DNA of 48,345 bases from a virus. The stretch lies in the IMG/VR virus record IMGVR_UViG_3300037258_000663, positions 1-48,345 of that record. The stretch is one strand, 5' to 3'. Position 1 is the stretch's first letter; every line of letters starts with the position of its first letter. Below the pieces are notes generated by a model. It was given only the letters and a program-made list of their open reading frames with translations, was not told the DNA's origin and ran no database searches. The position numbers were made by a program, and so were the translations under genes. This document shows positions 765-45,857 of the stretch, piece by piece.

Positions 765-876
765 CGGCTGGCGGGGAATCAAGCTTCGCTTGTCCGACCC
801 GCCATCACCAAAGTGATCGACGAAGACTTCCTTCACGGGAAGGCGCGGCCCGGCTCGTTACCGGGTCGTTTTTTTT
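765..876 (+). ncRNA. Structured RNA candidate, copy 1 (three hairpins plus terminator)
   Basis: There is no ORF support. Successive stems are visible: GGCGGG 770-775 with CCCGCC 798-803, enclosing AAGC-TTC-GCTT at 781-791; ATCAC 804-808 with GTGAT 813-817 (loop CAAA); CTTCC 827-831 with GGAAG 838-842; and an 8-bp terminator stem 846-853/861-868 followed by eight T. Copy 2 downstream shares the 18-nt word TCAAGCTTCGCTTGTCCG (779-796) and the same order of stems, although the other stems differ in sequence. No good promoter was found directly upstream; read-through from tRNA-Cys is possible. The 5' end is a guess. An alternative is a REP-like intergenic repeat. Confidence 0.5.
846..876 (+). terminator. 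Rho-independent terminator of RNA copy 1
   Basis: The stem CGGCCCGG (846-853) pairs with CCGGGTCG (861-868), with one G-T wobble and a 7-nt loop, and is followed by TTTTTTTT at 869-876. Confidence 0.8.
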
Positions 877-908
877 GCGTTCCAAAGTCCCCTGTCCCCT
901 ATCTCCGT

Positions 909-938
909 TTGACACTACCCGGCATGCGTTGTTATCAT
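909..938 (+). promoter_or_regulatory. Putative promoter of RNA copy 2
   Basis: A perfect TTGACA at 909-914 is followed 18 bp later by TATCAT at 933-938 (five of six consensus bases). Transcription from about 945 would make an RNA of about 125 nt ending at the terminator at 1070. Confidence 0.55.
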
Positions 939-944
939 TCACGG

Positions 945-1070
945 ATATAAATCGCGCCACCCCCGGCGGGTTCAAGCTTCGCTTGTCCGGCCCGTCGGTG
1001 ATCAGCCGCGATTAAGATTTTCCCTTCGCCGGGAGGACGCTCCTCGGTGCTTCGGCACCGGGGAGTTTTT
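945..1070 (+). ncRNA. Structured RNA candidate, copy 2 (three hairpins plus terminator)
   Basis: The layout repeats that of copy 1. CCGGCGGG 963-970 pairs with CCCGTCGG 991-998 and encloses the AAGC-TTC-GCTT hairpin; TGATC 999-1003 pairs with GATTA 1010-1014; TCCC 1021-1024 pairs with GGGA 1031-1034; an 11-bp terminator stem with a TTCG loop follows at 1040-1065. The 18-nt word at 972-989 is identical to that of copy 1, while stems two to four keep their pairing with different bases. It has its own promoter-like sequence at 909-938. A regulatory RNA of the prophage is inferred; the target is unknown. Confidence 0.55.
1040..1070 (+). terminator. Strong rho-independent terminator of RNA copy 2
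   Basis: An 11-bp stem, 1040-1050 with 1055-1065 (one T-G wobble), closed by a TTCG tetraloop, is followed by TTTTT at 1066-1070. Confidence 0.88.
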
Positions 1071-1511: not shown

Positions 1512-1937
1512 CATCGCGAATGATGTGATGCGACAGGGCCTAACGGTCCCTGACGCATCCGGACAAGCGAACTCTCCGACAACGGGACCGCCGCTGAAAG
1601 GTTTTAATAGCGGTCACCATCCGAGGCCCTTCATCGGGCCAAGGCCATGCCGGTCAGCTCGCTAGAGCGGCGATCGGCGGCCGTCCTCGAAGCAGCTTCG
1701 CGGTCGGCCTTTGGCAATCAAGCTTGGCACATTGCATGCGCAAGTTGCATCCCTAATTCGATTTCCCCTCGAAGATGGAATGTCGCTTCGTCGCCAGCGA
1801 TAATGTTAGCGAGGACGCTCCGATGTTTTCCGCGCTGCTGGAGCTAGCGCGTGGCCCTTCGAGCAATGGCGCGCGCGCCGTTCGGACTACCGCATATACC
1901 GGGCCTGACGCGTGCGCCCCAGCCTATGAGGTGCACC
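1512..1937 (+). other. Long untranslated stretch before integrase
   Basis: No gene with a credible start lies here. Open frames through it are GC-driven shadows. Small hairpins are visible, for example CGAAG-CAG-CTTCG near 1688-1700. It could hold a structured int leader or integrase arm sites, but I see no clear repeated binding motif. Confidence 0.4.
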
Positions 1938-3020
1938 ATGAACCGAGCCGAATCGCGCCGCCACGACACGCAACCGTTGTTTCCGCCCGAGCCGATCGAG
2001 ACGATTTCGCTGAGGCTATTTTCCGGCGAGGAGGGCCAAGCGCCCATGGCCCGGGGAGACAGTGGTGGGGCGTTCTCTCCCTCGTGGACGCTGCGGGAAT
2101 TCATCGAAGCGCGAGTGATTCCCCAGGAGAAGCCGGCTCCCAAGACGATTCGGCGGTGGTGCGACTCGCTTGTTCACTGGGAAAGGTCCACGGGCAACCC
2201 ATCGATCGAAAGGATCTCACAGGATACGTGCGAACGATTTTTGCGCGGCCTGCAAGCAGCCGCGATCTGCAACAATACCAGGCGCACGCATATCACGCAG
2301 ATCAAAGGATTTCTAAGCCGACTTTCGCAGCCAACGGAGAAAAGGCCCGAAGCGGTTGGCTTTTTTCAAAAAAGGCTACTGATGAAAGCCCCGGCACTAG
2401 AGCTGATCATGGGCGAAAAAAAGCACATGTCGCTGCAGGAAATCGGAACCTATTTGGAATTTTGCTGCTATGCGGGGGGACCGAGAGATGTCCAGATGAC
2501 ATGCCAGAATCTGACGATTTTTACATACAACACGGCGCTGCGCATAGGCACCGTCTTGGCGCTAGAATATGCTTGGCTGGACCGGGACGAAGACTGGCAC
2601 TGGCTGAATATCCCTTCATCAGCGATGAAGCGAGGGATGCGATCAGGCCGAGGGTTGCGGATTCCGGTCAATCGATTCGCGCTGGATGCAATCGAGCGTC
2701 AGAGGACACTCACCGGCGCCACCGAACTCATCTTCGGTGGAACCGACAAATACCAGCAATTCGATCGCGCCAGGACGCGGATTTTGAAAATGTCCGGGAT
2801 TATCAAGCCTGCGAAGCGATTCGGTTTTCATGGGCTACGGCAGGCCTCAGTGTTTTACATGTACGATATCAATTCCCGTGTGGCAGATCTCTTATTGGGC
2901 CATGCCACAGGAAATACGACGGCCAGATACTACACCGCATGGGAAGTTCTGGCCAAGGCGATCGCGCAACTGCCGCAGCCCAGGTGGAATCCGATCGCTC
3001 CACAAAAGCTTCTTTTCTAA
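1938..3020 (+). CDS. int: Tyrosine-type site-specific integrase
   Basis: This is a 360-residue tyrosine recombinase that would catalyse integration and excision at the tRNA-Cys att site. The N-terminal SAM-like core-binding domain spans about residues 50-140. The catalytic domain shows Arg202 (TALRIGT), the HxxR box His298-Gly-Leu-Arg301, His322 (LLGHATG) and Tyr331 or Tyr332 (ARYYTAW). I chose the ATG at 1938 because GAGGTG lies 5-6 nt upstream; an upstream ATG at 1851 would add 29 unlikely residues. A 501-codon frame that overlaps it entirely has no such motifs and is rejected. The gene sits near attL on the + strand, as expected for an integrase next to its att site. No excisionase was recognised beside it. 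Confidence 0.95.
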   Translation: MNRAESRRHDTQPLFPPEPIETISLRLFSGEEGQAPMARGDSGGAFSPSWTLREFIEARVIPQEKPAPKTIRRWCDSLVHWERSTGNPSIERISQDTCERFLRGLQAAAICNNTRRTHITQIKGFLSRLSQPTEKRPEAVGFFQKRLLMKAPALELIMGEKKHMSLQEIGTYLEFCCYAGGPRDVQMTCQNLTIFTYNTALRIGTVLALEYAWLDRDEDWHWLNIPSSAMKRGMRSGRGLRIPVNRFALDAIERQRTLTGATELIFGGTDKYQQFDRARTRILKMSGIIKPAKRFGFHGLRQASVFYMYDINSRVADLLLGHATGNTTARYYTAWEVLAKAIAQLPQPRWNPIAPQKLLF

Positions 3021-5356: not shown

Positions 5357-6349
5357 ATGGAAGCTCCCCGTTTACAAATTGCATCGCCATTCGCTGATTT
5401 TTGGCGGCTGCGCTGCAGCGTGCATTCCGATCCAAGGCTTTCCCTTGGCGCGAAATGTGCCTGGGAATTTCTGTTTGCAAAATGTGGTGGCCGGCTGACA
5501 GACGTGACCACTAGCACGGCCGAGCTAGGCCATTCGGAGAATCGATCTGCCAAGACGGCCTACGATTGGCTCAAGGAACTTATTGAATGTGGTTACCTCG
5601 AAATTATTGACCGGCCGCGGCATCGCGGTACCCTGGCCCGCAGCGGGCCATGGCATGTCTTTCTCAATGATCCGACCGACGTCGCTAAAGTGCGACGGGC
5701 CCTGGAGGGCGACGGACAAGGCGAGCTATTCGATCGGCAAGAGGCCGGCCGAGTCGCCGCTGAAGATCCACAAGTGCTCCCGGCGGATCATCGGCTGACG
5801 GATGCAGCCGACTTTTCCCTCCGGCTGCCGGCGCGGATCACCGCGCCGGCGTCGGCAGTGGAAAAGGCAGCGGGGTCCTTGGCGCCTAGAACCCCGATAG
5901 ACTTTAGACTTAAACAAGAATCTCTTAATAAGACTTTGGACTTTAGACCTCTTAGGGTAACCAACCCAGTAGAAGTCCAAAGTACCATCGGGGAATTGGG
6001 ATCCCAAAACCCCGCTGGGTCATCCGAGCGGGAGCCCTCCCCGATTGCCGGCAGCGTGGCTTCGGCGCTGGAAAAGTTCTCGGCGTTGCCGTCGACGGCC
6101 GACCGGATCGACGAGCTGCATCGATTCTCGACTTGGCTCGTGGAAAAGGTTTCCGGGCTCTACGAGACGGTGGCCGTGGAAATCGCCTCGGCCGTGCTGG
6201 ACGGCCGGTACCCGATGGAGCAACTCAGCAAGATTTTGCTCCGTATGGCCCTGCTCAAAAAGCGTGGAGAGCTGCGTAGGCCGGAAGCTGTGTTCTTCGC
6301 CAAAGCCGCTCGAAAATCGATCGCTGAAAACGATCCAGGTGCCCGATGA
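5357..6349 (+). CDS. Winged-helix replication-type protein (330 aa)
   Basis: Residues about 28-85 (LSLGAKCAWEFLFAKCGG ... LGHSENRSAKTAYDWLKELIECGYLEI) have the shape of the winged-helix domain found in phage replication initiators and DnaD/O-type proteins. A Pro/Ala-rich linker follows, then a helical C-terminal part (about 235-325). It overlaps the downstream ParB-like gene by 4 bp. A role in starting phage DNA replication or loading a host helicase is inferred from the domain and position. No helicase gene is present, so the host enzyme would be used. Confidence 0.6.
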   Translation: MEAPRLQIASPFADFWRLRCSVHSDPRLSLGAKCAWEFLFAKCGGRLTDVTTSTAELGHSENRSAKTAYDWLKELIECGYLEIIDRPRHRGTLARSGPWHVFLNDPTDVAKVRRALEGDGQGELFDRQEAGRVAAEDPQVLPADHRLTDAADFSLRLPARITAPASAVEKAAGSLAPRTPIDFRLKQESLNKTLDFRPLRVTNPVEVQSTIGELGSQNPAGSSEREPSPIAGSVASALEKFSALPSTADRIDELHRFSTWLVEKVSGLYETVAVEIASAVLDGRYPMEQLSKILLRMALLKKRGELRRPEAVFFAKAARKSIAENDPGAR

Positions 6350-7224
6350 GTTCACGCTCCGACCGCCAACGAATCTCCAGCTATATCCGCGAATTCGATG
6401 CCGATCGAGTGCGGCCGCTGGTCGGCCAGCCCCGCAAACGATTCGCCGGCATCAAGGAGCTGGCGAACTCAATGCGCGCCATCGGGCAGATCACGCCGGG
6501 TCTGGTTACTCTGGTCGAGGATGATGATCGGTTTGATGCCGAGCTAGTCGATGGCGAACGCCGCCTGAAGGCTTGCGCCCTCGCTGATCTGCCATTTCAG
6601 GCGCAGGTTCGGCCCCGCGACGATGCGGATAAGATTTTCGCGATTAGCTTCGCGGCCAACTTCGGACGGCAAGGGCATGATCCGGTCGAGATCGCCGAGG
6701 CGCTGGATCGAATGCGCTCGGCCGGTCGTACGAACCTCGAGATCGCAGCCATCGCCGGAAAGTCGGACTTCTGGGTCTCGACGCACCTGCGCCTCCTGGG
6801 GCTCCGTCCTGAGGTGCTCAATCGCATGGTTCCCGGTGATGACAACAAAGCCAAGCTGAGCATGGACCATGCCATGCGGATGTTCGATCTGCCGGAGCCA
6901 CAGCAGCTGGGGCTCTTGAAAAAGATTGATAAGGGAATTTCGAGTAAGGCGCTGCGCCTGGAGGTCGATCGGCTTCGCCGGCGATTGGAACTGCCGGTGC
7001 GGGGAGAGAAAAGTCGCTCCATCGGCAAGCTGGGAAAACGCGCCAAGCATTTTCTGGCGTTGCTGGGGAACTATCTCGATCTGGAGGGCGACGAGTTTAA
7101 CAAACTGGTGGACTATTCCTCCAGTTCCGACGCGCGCTGCTGCGTAGACGATTTGGAGGCCGCGGCCGACGCCCTGTGGGGACTGCGCCGGGCCATCTCC
7201 CGTCGCAAGGGGATCAAATCATGA
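6346..7224 (+). CDS. ParB/Spo0J-like partition-type protein (292 aa)
   Basis: Signature features of the ParB nuclease/CTPase core are visible: QPRKRF at 28-33, IKELANSMRAIGQITP at 36-51 and DGERRLKA at 69-76 (the GERR box). An HTH follows (TNLEIAAIAGKSDFWVSTHLRLLGL, about 127-151). ParB proteins bind parS-type sites and often act as phage transcription or segregation factors. The start at 6346 overlaps the preceding stop and the gene is coupled to the next. No partner ParA ATPase is present, which argues for a regulatory or replication role rather than plasmid-style partition. Confidence 0.85.
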   Translation: MSSRSDRQRISSYIREFDADRVRPLVGQPRKRFAGIKELANSMRAIGQITPGLVTLVEDDDRFDAELVDGERRLKACALADLPFQAQVRPRDDADKIFAISFAANFGRQGHDPVEIAEALDRMRSAGRTNLEIAAIAGKSDFWVSTHLRLLGLRPEVLNRMVPGDDNKAKLSMDHAMRMFDLPEPQQLGLLKKIDKGISSKALRLEVDRLRRRLELPVRGEKSRSIGKLGKRAKHFLALLGNYLDLEGDEFNKLVDYSSSSDARCCVDDLEAAADALWGLRRAISRRKGIKS

Positions 7225-7490: not shown

Positions 7491-7876
7491 GTGAGTATTT
7501 GCCTGTTCCAGTCGATGTCGCGAGAGCAATCTCCGAAAACTATTCGAAGAGTATGGTCGTGATCCTTTGCTACGACGACGTTCATGAAGTTACCCACACC
7601 ACATCCTATGGGAGAGAGGCGTTTGATAAGGAGAATGCCGCCGCTGCCGCTGTGCTGTGCACCAAAGCGGTCGGAGGCGACCTGAGCCGCAAACAGGAGT
7701 ATGAAGATTTTCACAATAATTACGACGCGGCCAAACTGCGCACGGCTCAGGAAATTTTCATCCGCATTTGGCGACATCAGGGAATCACAGCCGTCGATCT
7801 GCAGCAAATCGAGCGATGGCTGCGCCCGGAGGAATTCTTCGGCGAGGCTGAGGTTTCCTTCCGAAACCAAAATTAA
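7487..7876 (+). CDS. Early-operon hypothetical protein (129 aa)
   Basis: It starts at 7487 (MSEYLPVPVDVARAI) by ATGA overlap with the HTH gene. The sequence is a mixed alpha-beta soluble protein with no motif I recognise. VVILCYDDVHEVTHTTSYG may form a beta hairpin, and the second half is helical. It is the last gene of the tightly overlapping cluster; a 34-nt gap follows before the large ParB gene. Confidence 0.65.
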   Translation: MSEYLPVPVDVARAISENYSKSMVVILCYDDVHEVTHTTSYGREAFDKENAAAAAVLCTKAVGGDLSRKQEYEDFHNNYDAAKLRTAQEIFIRIWRHQGITAVDLQQIERWLRPEEFFGEAEVSFRNQN

Positions 7877-7910
7877 CCCTTTAACCCAAAGGGTGAAAAA
7901 GGAGCAATCC

Positions 7911-10900
7911 ATGGCAACCGCAACGCTAGAAAAACCGCGACGGCAACGACCGGCGCAAACGCTGACTGAGGTGGATCGGGAAGTCGTTATTCAGGAGGCG
8001 CTAGGCGAGGACGCCATGTTCAAGAATGAAGGCGACTTTGACTCTCTTCGGCGTGAATTAGCGAAATTCTCCGAGAAGAACCTGGCGGTTGATTTCGCAA
8101 AAAGCTGGTTCCAGAACTCAGCCGGCGAGTTTGACGTTGATCGAAAGACGCGGGGAGATCGGAGGATTATCGCGAAGCCGAACGGCCTACACGTCATCGC
8201 CGGCGATCGGCGGGGCATCGTCCGCTATATCGACCTGGTCGATGAGGTTTTGGATTTTTCCAGCACGACCAGCAACGGCGATGCGCCGCCGGTGATGCCC
8301 GAGCGCGCGCAAAATAATGGTGGTAATAATTTGGCCACCGAAACGCCCGTTTGTAGCAACGATGTGGCCACAAAAAACCCACAGCAAAGCGCTTGGAATG
8401 GGCTTCCGGTCGAGGCGCTATATGTCGCTTCTGACCGGATTCAGGTGGCCAATATGAGCGTCGCCGGCCGCGATCTGCGGACGAAAAAACCGTGGGCCGC
8501 CTCGATGATGCGGGAGAGAGAAAGTTGGTACATCGTCGAAGCGGTCACAAACCATGGAAATGCCCGCGTCGCTCACCTATGGGAAGCGGTATATAAAGCG
8601 GAATTTTCTGGGAGAGCTCGGAGCTCGGCTAAAGGCGACGACCTGACCGGCCTCGTCTTCGATTACTTCCAGCATCGATATGTCATCACCGGCAGGCGAC
8701 TCGATCTATGGTGCAAGATTGACGAGAACGGTGCGCCAAAAGTCGATAGTTTTCCGGCTCCCCATCCTGCGACCCTTGTCGGCGCAGCGCCTCTGGAACC
8801 GGAATGTACGGACCCGCAAGGGCCAAGCGACCGTATCGGTCGACCTGGAGGACGCGCGTCGACCCGCAGCGATGCGGACGATGGAACTGGCACCGCTGGT
8901 GAAAGCCCAACACCCGGAGACGGGACCATTACCCAGCCGGAATCAAGCCCGGCGGCCGGCGATTTGAGAAAGAAGCGGGATTGGAAGCTAAACTCGAGCG
9001 GCGTTTTTGTTCGGAACGTGAAATGTGTCAAGGTACCCATCCCAAAGAGTACCGGATGCAAGATCACCATACGCCTGGTCGAACACAAGGGAAGATGGCA
9101 CACCGGCTACAAATTTGAAGGGCCCATGGCGCTAATTGGAGGCGCTTCGGCCGATCCTGCGATCGGCCGCGATAGTTATTCCAGCCGCGAGGCCGCTCTG
9201 CTTGGACAGCTCGATCATGCACTGAAATTTCTATCGGAGCGCGACGGCAAGAAAGACCCACGGACTCGTCGAGCTAAGGAGGCAGTCCGGGAATTTCGGG
9301 CAAAACATATTGTCCCCCCAGAATCGAGCGCAGATTATGGGAAAGGTGAGAAGAGTTCAGTTAGAACTAAACCGCCCAGCTCGAAGAAGCACGCTACGAA
9401 GGAAGATTGGTTAAATCGCGAGGGACCACCGCAGGAAGTGCGCAAGGTGGCGATCGAGGAGATTCAAGCTGCGGTCACCAACCGCGAGCCGCAAACCAGT
9501 GTGCTCGATGTGGCTTTTGCTTTCATCACACCCAATCCCTTCCAGCAACGCAAGGAGTTTGATCAGGAGGAGCTCGCGGGTCTGGCCGCAACCATCAAGG
9601 AGCACGGCTTAATCCAGCGCGTGGTACTACGGACGGATCCGAATTGCAGCGGGGCTTACCAGCTGGTTGCCGGCGAGCGGCGTTGCCGAGCCATGAAGTT
9701 ATTGGGTTGGACGCATGCTCCCGCTGAGATTCGCCAGTTCACCGACGCCCAAATGCAAGTTCTAGCTTTGGTGGAAAACGAGCAACGCAAGGATTTGAAC
9801 CCCGTGGAGCGGGGCCGCGGCTTTAAGCGCTTGCTGCACGAGCAGAAATTTCGGCCCGTCGACTTGGAAAAAATCCTGGGGCGCAGCCAGGGGTATATTT
9901 CCAATCACCTGCGGCTGCTGGATCTGCCCAAGGCATGCCTGGAGCGGGTTGCCGCCGGCGAGATTTCGCTGACGCATGCCCGCTCGCTGATGCCGTTTGC
10001 CAAATATCCGGCGCTGGTGGCTGCGGCGTTGAAGATCAAGTCGATTGACAAGATGTCGCACAGCAATTTCGAAGAGAAAGTTGCTGAGAGGATTGACTCT
10101 GCGACGCGCGACGTCGAAGAAGATCACGATCGTCATTATCGCCACATCGGAAAACTGAAACTGTCGGAATCGCAACGTCAGGAGCTCGGGATCATCACGG
10201 TGCGCGATCGTTGGGGCGACTTCTCGGACCGCGCTACAAACACGAAGCTGTTTGATCAGCTGTGGAAGGCGCACGAAGCCAAGAAATCCAGCGATGATGA
10301 TGATGAAAAACCGTCGGGAGGTAAAAAGGGCGAGAAGAAGCTGACCCCGACCCAGCTGAAGGAACGCTCCAAAAAACGCAGCGAGCAGTTTCGCAATCGC
10401 ATGCGGGCTTGGAAGGCCAACTGGCTGCGCTGGCTGATCGCCCAGCGGCTGGAGAAGCGCGGCGCGCAAGCGGACGATGTGACCATGTTTCGAGTGCTTC
10501 TATTCGCTGCGCGGCGGGGTACGTCCGGGTTCGGCCTAACCAATAAGGCGCTATTCAAAGCGATCGAGCAGATCACCGGCAAAAAACCGCGCTCGGTGTG
10601 GAACGACTGCGGAGGCGAAACTTGGAACGCCGTCATGCTGGCTGAGGACGGGGAGCTGGCCGACATCGCGCTGGCGTTCGCCCGGCATCTGTTTTGGGCC
10701 AAGATCGACAACCAGGAGCAGCCCATCGCGGGGCTGGACGATCGGGAAGTGTTTTCGCTGGCCAAGCATTTGAAGCTGAACCTGGCCAAGGAGTGGAAGG
10801 CCAACCAGGCCGGGCCGCTGACCGAGGCTTTTTATCAACTGCACGACACTGAGCCATTACGCGCGCTTTGCCGGGAGCTGAGGACCAACGGCGTGGTCAC

Positions 10901-11012
10901 AAACGACTCTTGGAATCAGCCGCCCGAGCAAAGCCGGAAATCCGAAATCGTCGCGCAGCTATTGAAGGACAAACCCAAAAAACTTCCCCAGGAGCTCGCC
11001 GCGGCGAAGTGA
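7911..11012 (+). CDS. Giant ParB-domain protein (1033 aa)
   Basis: The ATG at 7911 follows AAAAAGGAG, a strong ribosome-binding site; frames open further upstream overlap the previous gene and are rejected. Residues 1-275 show no domain I know. A low-complexity linker spans about 280-350 and another uncharacterised module about 355-450. From about residue 530 the full ParB core appears: NPFQQRKEFD, VAGERRCRAMK (near 588), LVENEQRKDLNPVERG (near 620) and an HTH at about 650-672 (LGRSQGYISNHLRLLDLP). An acidic/lysine linker near 790-805 and a helical C-terminal domain follow. The ParB core and C-terminal region recall the PRTRC-type ParB proteins. At three times normal ParB length, it may combine DNA binding with a second activity. 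It is the second of three ParB-related genes here. Confidence 0.85.
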   Translation: MATATLEKPRRQRPAQTLTEVDREVVIQEALGEDAMFKNEGDFDSLRRELAKFSEKNLAVDFAKSWFQNSAGEFDVDRKTRGDRRIIAKPNGLHVIAGDRRGIVRYIDLVDEVLDFSSTTSNGDAPPVMPERAQNNGGNNLATETPVCSNDVATKNPQQSAWNGLPVEALYVASDRIQVANMSVAGRDLRTKKPWAASMMRERESWYIVEAVTNHGNARVAHLWEAVYKAEFSGRARSSAKGDDLTGLVFDYFQHRYVITGRRLDLWCKIDENGAPKVDSFPAPHPATLVGAAPLEPECTDPQGPSDRIGRPGGRASTRSDADDGTGTAGESPTPGDGTITQPESSPAAGDLRKKRDWKLNSSGVFVRNVKCVKVPIPKSTGCKITIRLVEHKGRWHTGYKFEGPMALIGGASADPAIGRDSYSSREAALLGQLDHALKFLSERDGKKDPRTRRAKEAVREFRAKHIVPPESSADYGKGEKSSVRTKPPSSKKHATKEDWLNREGPPQEVRKVAIEEIQAAVTNREPQTSVLDVAFAFITPNPFQQRKEFDQEELAGLAATIKEHGLIQRVVLRTDPNCSGAYQLVAGERRCRAMKLLGWTHAPAEIRQFTDAQMQVLALVENEQRKDLNPVERGRGFKRLLHEQKFRPVDLEKILGRSQGYISNHLRLLDLPKACLERVAAGEISLTHARSLMPFAKYPALVAAALKIKSIDKMSHSNFEEKVAERIDSATRDVEEDHDRHYRHIGKLKLSESQRQELGIITVRDRWGDFSDRATNTKLFDQLWKAHEAKKSSDDDDEKPSGGKKGEKKLTPTQLKERSKKRSEQFRNRMRAWKANWLRWLIAQRLEKRGAQADDVTMFRVLLFAARRGTSGFGLTNKALFKAIEQITGKKPRSVWNDCGGETWNAVMLAEDGELADIALAFARHLFWAKIDNQEQPIAGLDDREVFSLAKHLKLNLAKEWKANQAGPLTEAFYQLHDTEPLRALCRELRTNGVVTNDSWNQPPEQSRKSEIVAQLLKDKPKKLPQELAAAK

Positions 11013-44185: not shown

Positions 44186-44258
44186 ACGACTGTAACTCTT
44201 CAAGGAGAGGGGCGGACTGAAAATCCGTGTGTCGCCGGTTCAATCCCGGCCCTGACCA
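44186..44258 (+). pseudogene. tRNA-Phe-like sequence lacking a matching 5' acceptor strand
   Basis: Positions 44212-44258 fold as a good tRNA 3' half: anticodon stem GCGGA/TCCGT with loop CTGAAAA (GAA anticodon 44219-44221), variable loop GTGTC, T stem GCCGG/CCGGC with loop TTCAATC, acceptor strand CCTGACC and discriminator A. A GGTCAGG partner is missing at the expected 5' end; only one of seven acceptor positions would pair. The D-arm-like region (CTCT/AGAG) has only a 6-nt loop. This pattern (3' half kept, 5' half lost) looks like an old att remnant rather than a working tRNA. Confidence 0.6.
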
Positions 44259-44321: not shown

Positions 44322-44699
44322 ATGGAAGGTTTGAATTGTCGGCAGAAAATGAGCGTTCTCCGCGCATTAAACGACCCGATCGAGCGCGCGAGGATTGTGA
44401 AGGCTACGTGGCTCGAATCGGGTCTAACACAGGATGAGTTTGGCAGACAAATCGGCTGCTCGCAAGGGCAGGTCGCGGCGCTTTGTCGCCTTCTGCAGCT
44501 GCCAACCGCCTGGCGTGAGCGCGTGCGCCGCAAGCAACTATCACCTACGCACGCTGATGCGCTGCTGAAGGGAAAGCTGCGGCCTGCACTTCTAGCCGCC
44601 ATCGAGGAAAAATATTTCCCGAAGTGGCACACCCCACGGAAATTGCCGAGGTGGGAGAAATTTCACCGGGAGGTCAGTCTGCTCGATCGCCGACTTTGA
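44322..44699 (+). CDS. Stand-alone ParB/KorB-type HTH protein (125 aa)
   Basis: The central part (ATWLESGLTQDEFGRQIGCS, QGQVAALCRLLQLPTAWRERV, LSPTHADALL) is the ParB-family helix-turn-helix plus its following helices, without the nuclease/CTPase core (no GERR box). The C-terminal half is basic. It resembles KorB-like operator-binding domains and may repress or regulate. It is the third ParB-related gene of the prophage and the best repressor candidate near the right end. No clear ribosome-binding site precedes ATG 44322. Confidence 0.75.
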   Translation: MEGLNCRQKMSVLRALNDPIERARIVKATWLESGLTQDEFGRQIGCSQGQVAALCRLLQLPTAWRERVRRKQLSPTHADALLKGKLRPALLAAIEEKYFPKWHTPRKLPRWEKFHREVSLLDRRL

Positions 44700-44841
44700 A
44701 TGGGAACTATAGCGTCTCAAATCGGGACTGTACGGCCGAAGGAAACTTGCTAGTATTTGGCTGGTCGGGATGCAACTTCTGACGGCTTTCGCCGCCTACT
44801 AGTTTGCATCGCGGCTGAACACTGCACCCGATCAGCTAATA

Positions 44842-44884
44842 GGGCCGCGGGAAGGCTTGCTACCTTCCCGCGGCCCGCTTTTTT
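44842..44884 (+). terminator. Very strong rho-independent terminator
   Basis: A perfect 14-bp stem, GGGCCGCGGGAAGG (44842-44855) with its complement (44863-44876), has a 7-nt loop and is followed by GCTTTTTTG. It ends transcription arriving from the late region and insulates the following gene. Confidence 0.93.
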
Positions 44885-44960
44885 GCTAGCATCAATCCGT
44901 GTCGTTCGGGCGCGCAACGGATTAATAGTCCGTGTCTCGCCATCCCCTCGGAGGTTGGAG

Positions 44961-45740: not shown

Positions 45741-45788
45741 GCGAATTGCAAATCCGCCATCGTCGGTTCGACTCCGACCGGCGCCTTT
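45741..45788. other. attR (tRNA-Cys 3'-end duplicate)
   Basis: It matches 664-711 at 47 of 48 positions, with a perfect 44-bp core from 45745. The 5' part of the tRNA is absent, so this copy cannot be functional. Next to it lies the original tRNA terminator. Confidence 0.93.
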
Positions 45789-45789
45789 C

Positions 45790-45823
45790 ACAGCCGTGCT
45801 GCCAAGCGCAGAGCGGCTGTTTT
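45790..45823 (+). terminator. Original tRNA-Cys terminator, displaced to the right of attR
   Basis: ACAGCCG (45790-45796) pairs with CGGCTGT (45814-45820), then TTTT. It directly follows the att duplicate and would have ended the tRNA transcript before integration. Confidence 0.6.
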
Positions 45824-45857
45824 GCTGCGCGCCATCGCGATGAATGGCGCCAAGAAT

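Follow-up and report, generated by a model that had tools for sequence, protein, structure and literature searches.

Paired structured RNA candidates between attL and the integrase gene of a prophage inserted in tRNA-Cys

Tandem paralogous small RNAs are known from bacteria, PrrF1/PrrF2 and OmrA/OmrB among them, and the sib element of phage lambda, which lies downstream of int, exerts retroregulation on that gene. To our knowledge, the small RNAs of planctomycetes and their phages have hardly been described. The PhiRv2 prophage of Mycobacterium tuberculosis encodes ncRv12659, a single small RNA that reads outward across attR into host sequence (PMC3861185). In E. coli, the trailer of a host tRNA operon, 3'ETS-leuZ, serves as an RNA sponge (Lalaouna et al. 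2015, as described in PMC7154689). The locus analyzed here holds two homologous units with a shared fold and compensatory changes, a promoter at the second copy, and a position between attL and the integrase gene.

Insertion site and genomic setting

The window, that is, the whole stretch analyzed, constitutes a 48,345-base virus record, of which positions 712-45744 are the inserted element; the tRNA gene, attachment cores, RNA units with their helices and transcription signals, and the two downstream genes described below are all on the + strand. The integration target is a host tRNA-Cys (gca) at 638-709, called by both ARAGORN and Rfam, inside which lies a 44-bp attL core (668-711) identical to a second copy at 45745-45788, the attR core. 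In the related genome G311, an unbroken tRNA-Cys is situated between the same neighboring genes that flank the element in the window. The left flank of the window can be aligned with it as far as the core, and the right flank onward from the core (80% identity over 1,019 bases). G311 thus represents the empty site, confirming the insertion of 712-45744. The host is probably a planctomycete, judging from the closest matches of the flanking genes in a comparison among planctomycete genomes only. In genomes G327 and G337 (loci L035 and L037), tRNA-Cys has a different integrase-like sequence downstream, as read by eye, so that this gene seems to have served for integration more than once in this family.

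Both RNA units are inside the prophage, between attL and a tyrosine integrase of 360 aa counted from the ATG at 1938 (1938-3020; Pfam PF00589, 2e-10; PHROG 1, 1.5e-19), and the first gene 3' of copy 2 is an ORF of 107 aa with a weak zinc-ribbon match (1139-1462). Elsewhere in the prophage, three ORFs contain ParB-like domains (6346-7224, 7701-11012, and 44322-44699), one of these domains within a 1103-aa protein, and defence-system models gave 0 matches among ten nearby proteins. Searches of viral contigs with the integrase, terminase, capsid, ParB-like protein, and portal recovered no prophage relative close enough for comparison. Integrase relatives of ∼30% identity were present in 11 of 397 genomes, with no such RNA at their loci.

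Sequence similarity, fold, and covariation of the two copies

The two units, each 127 nt, run from 750 to 876 (copy 1) and from 947 to 1073 (copy 2), somewhat beyond the 765-1070 given by the sequence-only reading. That reading had reported a tandem pair sharing an 18-nt word about 190 nt apart, and the word is indeed repeated exactly at 779-796 and 972-989, with a spacing of 193, as part of a longer match in which 22 of 23 nt are alike; the 48-kb window contains no further copy of it, and none of 100 shuffles contained two matches to the word, even at 3 mismatches. Downstream of the word the copies remain similar, with a score of 44 where shuffles averaged 20 ± 4 (z 5.9) and none of 500 reached it, and TAA-TCG-GCCAC ahead of the main stem is common to both copies; the units are therefore full-length paralogues, more than two hairpins that share a word.

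Both copies are predicted to fold in the same order, namely one long irregular stem, AAGA, a small hairpin, and an intrinsic terminator, and the tip of the long stem is a nearly invariant hairpin, CAAGC-UUC-GCUUG, followed by UCCGR. In copy 1 the long stem comprises an outer helix (754-758/817-821), a CACU/AGUG helix (760-763/812-815), the main stem (769-775/798-804), and the inner hairpin (780-784/788-792), followed by the small hairpin (827-831/838-842) and the terminator (846-853/861-868 plus U8). The corresponding elements of copy 2 are the outer helix (950-956/1007-1013), main stem (964-970/991-997), inner hairpin (973-977/981-985), small hairpin (1019-1024/1031-1036), and terminator (around 1040-1065 plus a U-run); the CAC/GTG helix forms in copy 1 only. 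Relative to shuffles, the folds of 745-844 (copy 1) and 945-1071 (copy 2) have z scores of -4.65 and -4.62 and rank fourth and fifth among 441 windows of the + strand. Pair probabilities of the outer helix are 0.97 in copy 1 and 0.92 in copy 2 when the full units are folded, and 0.88 in copy 1 when the transcript is modeled from the tRNA-Cys start; RNAalifold, run unconstrained on the alignment, likewise gave the long stem.

Of the four stems drawn previously, the second hairpin (ATCAC/GTGAT in copy 1, TGATC/GATTA in copy 2) is replaced by the one long stem. Its mean pair probabilities of 0.76 and 0.64 in the truncated sequence fall to 0.025 and 0.000 in the full units with their 5' arms included; once 15-20 more bases are present at the 5' end, the 5' arm takes the same bases into the outer helix. 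The second hairpin is thus an artefact of folding that began too far 3', and it was rejected. It had also supplied the example of compensation between the copies, which has to be withdrawn: the word GTGATC is common to the two copies and occupies the same place in their alignment, yet it lies in the 3' arm region of this hairpin in copy 1 and in the 5' arm region in copy 2, so the pairs are non-homologous and the quoted compensation is no evidence.

True two-sided changes are found elsewhere. In the corrected fold, five pairs differ between the copies on both sides and still pair, and four differ on one side; of the five, one belongs to the outer helix (G-C/A-U), one each to the main stem and the small hairpin (both U-A/C-G), and two to the terminator (G-C/U-A and G-U/C-G). 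Random placement of 15 changes in paired positions would yield 0.66 such two-sided changes, and of 18 changes 0.92; five have P < 5e-5 with the copy 1 structure and P < 5e-4 with the copy 2 structure, values that derive from two sequences in a hand-made alignment with padding. With the copy 2 fold as reference, the overall number of kept pairs is unremarkable (P 0.19). The five two-sided changes support the earlier view that selection is probably acting on the RNA structure of both copies, on a structure that differs from the one drawn at the time.

Transcription signals and searches for homologues

Copy 2 is preceded by a promoter, TTGACA-18-TATCAT with an extended -10, at 909-938, which the sequence-only reading had already singled out as good and which is the sole 11-of-12 sigma-70-type match on both strands of the 48 kb, with none in ten shuffles. 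Transcription would start near 945, 7 nt 3' of the promoter, which coincides with the 5' boundary of the fold. The strong terminators ascribed to both copies are equally evident, each as a G+C hairpin followed by a U-run, and no ATG occurs within either unit. No promoter was recognized ahead of copy 1; duplication of the promoter along with the unit was considered and dropped, as the sequence upstream of copy 1 is unlike that upstream of copy 2.

Copy 1 begins 41 nt behind tRNA-Cys, whose promoter motif (TTGACC-17-TAAGTT, 544-572) is kept in the window and in five related genomes. A hairpin plus U-run beyond attR (45790-45824), now 45 kb away, is probably the tRNA-Cys gene's own terminator; because it has been displaced past attR, copy 1 can act as a replacement terminator, and its RNA may be a trailer. 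Just 3' of tRNA-Cys and before copy 1, a short, weak hairpin (718-736) and U-runs might end some tRNA-Cys transcripts upstream of copy 1. In other genomes (L035, L037, and L039), terminator-like hairpins lie 10-65 nt behind tRNA-Cys. As a separate observation, a conserved stretch (GATTCAAGTTGTCT...GGAAAAGTCGATTCC...GGGGAGAC) precedes the tRNA-Cys promoter in three genomes (window ∼460-535, L035, and L036).

Rfam contained no family at or above the gathering threshold for the two RNAs and returned tRNA matches only. The 18-nt word matched 2 viral contigs with unrelated flanks and, in 84,980 genomes, 30 stretches, all with unrelated flanks; a looser pattern matched 66 times in viral contigs, with none similar, and blastn against phages and plasmids returned chance pieces only. 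Many of the word matches seem to sit where genes for IS200/IS605-type transposases end (frame read by eye), and TCAAGCTTCGCTTGTCCG stands beside a hairpin in Patescibacteria, planctomycetes, and others (L006, L007, L008, L009, L014, and similar). The two-sequence covariance model that had been proposed for finding homologues found none in roughly 900 planctomycete genomes, drawn as overlapping samples at the level of family (3 genomes), order (397), class (298), and phylum (294) and searched with strict filters and few candidates per genome, so that the empty result in these samples is no proof of absence. Its matches (order 1, class 4, phylum 5) scored 22-27 bits, comprised mostly the terminator only, and were attributed to chance. 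The five nearest related host genomes contained no copy of the RNAs.

A third structured RNA candidate was observed near the far end of the prophage (44755-44892, +), in which a long outer stem encloses two hairpins in a three-way junction, with a 14-bp terminator and its U-run on the 3' side (z -7.3; 0 of 200 shuffles as stable). It has no Rfam match and no sequence relation to the two copies. Nearby, an Rfam tRNA match at 44192-44251 (+), just above threshold at 30.7 bits, covers model positions 7-64 only and was not called by ARAGORN; it is perhaps a decayed or partial tRNA.

Possible functions and comparison with known systems

We regard the two units as genuine paralogous structured noncoding RNAs of the prophage, in all probability new in sequence and ordinary in kind. 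On balance, they are probably a noncoding RNA gene pair of ∼127 nt each that provides both small RNAs and terminators shielding the integrase region. The regulatory part of this reading is suggested by the promoter, the terminators, the lack of an ATG, and the homologous fold, which would fit a small RNA gene. Copy 2 would be a free small RNA with its start near 945. In the lysogen, copy 1 would form the 3' trailer of the transcript that begins at the host tRNA-Cys gene; it would terminate this transcript, taking over from the terminator that integration has moved away, and might be set free as another small RNA. Base pairing by the RNAs would fall to the conserved hairpin. Together, the two terminators would shield the integrase region from tRNA-Cys transcription and, once the element is excised and circular, from late-gene transcription.

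A candidate target is an exact complement of the conserved word (13 nt for copy 2, 12 nt for copy 1) at 1559-1571 (+), in the integrase leader between the 107-aa ORF and the integrase and 367 nt upstream of the integrase start codon, a distance that makes a direct block of translation unlikely. Shuffling 1074-1937 produced a complement this long in 5 of 20,000 trials, but shuffling the whole element did so in 10 of 300; the net pairing energy after opening both sites is estimated, from summed terms, at about -7 to -8 kcal/mol. A duplex energy scan of the whole element left the site unranked, its gapped energies, computed without accessibility, being uninformative. The site is a suggestive lead, spotted after the fact, to a possible pairing target. 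A lysogeny-switched pair, in which integration places copy 1 behind the host tRNA-Cys promoter, this RNA is made only in the prophage state, and both copies pair through the conserved word with 1559-1571 and lower integrase synthesis in the lysogen, is quite improbable.

Other explanations were weighed against this proposal. The units might be insulators only, tandem terminators that stop tRNA-Cys and late-gene transcription before the integrase with no action in trans, as would suit the strong terminators on both, the parting of tRNA-Cys from its own terminator by integration, and the terminator hairpins behind tRNA-Cys at neighboring loci. We consider this a minority possibility, since the last 30 nt would suffice for termination, whereas conservation is highest in the long stem and the 18-nt word, and copy 2 has a strong promoter of its own, for which an insulator would have no use. 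It is unlikely that the pair acts in cis as a tandem leader, an attenuator or riboswitch that would control the 107-aa ORF and the integrase through conditional termination at copy 2: the order of promoter, structured leader, terminator, and ORF agrees with such a role, but Rfam yielded no riboswitch match, no conserved antiterminator pairing was seen in folds in which the terminator pairs only with itself, and copy 1 is not immediately upstream of a gene.

Two further explanations concern the repeated word. As a DNA site, either an arm-type site of the integrase or an operator for a repressor or excisionase, it would account for its closeness to attL, its imperfect palindrome, and a third, inverted copy at 1559-1571; arm-type sites are expected on both attP arms, however, and the attR side has no copy at up to 2 mismatches, while the 127-nt homology, compensatory changes, terminators, and promoter would be left unexplained, which makes this very improbable. 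Least credible is a REP-like or insertion-sequence-derived hairpin repeat. Occurrence of the word in 30 stretches of the genomes searched, many beside a hairpin at apparent transposase ends, favors it, but the flanks of those matches share nothing with the two copies, no further copy exists in the window, and the scattering through the host that the sequence-only reading associated with such repeats was not seen across the five nearest related genomes.

If the proposed gene pair is real, it would represent a new RNA family located beside an attachment site, with one copy seemingly under a host tRNA promoter, and the locus would be a clean case of a prophage controlling RNA expression through its own integration site. 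It would also show that elements entering tRNA genes have to cope with the lost tRNA terminator.

Among described systems, PrrF1/PrrF2 and OmrA/OmrB resemble the pair in their adjacent copies, common core, diverged flanks, and separate terminators; there is no sequence relation, and here only one copy has a recognizable promoter. Lambda sib is similarly a structured RNA by an attachment site whose context is altered on integration, but it is downstream of int, whereas the present RNAs are upstream of the integrase. The likeness to 3'ETS-leuZ, as that RNA is described in the source cited above, is proposed for copy 1 only and consists in cleavage of a tRNA transcript that frees its 3' end as a regulatory RNA; the E. 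coli trailer belongs to the host, whereas that of copy 1 would be supplied by the prophage, with putative processing. The position of copy 1 and the conserved tRNA-Cys promoter would fit such a trailer model, but the hairpin and U-runs before copy 1 could stop transcription earlier. With ncRv12659 the locus shares a prophage in a tRNA gene, a phage promoter between the integrase and the attachment site, and a transcript content determined by integration. That RNA has no tandem copy and no known sequence relation to the present RNAs, which, in contrast to its outward direction, would be transcribed inward and end before the integrase.
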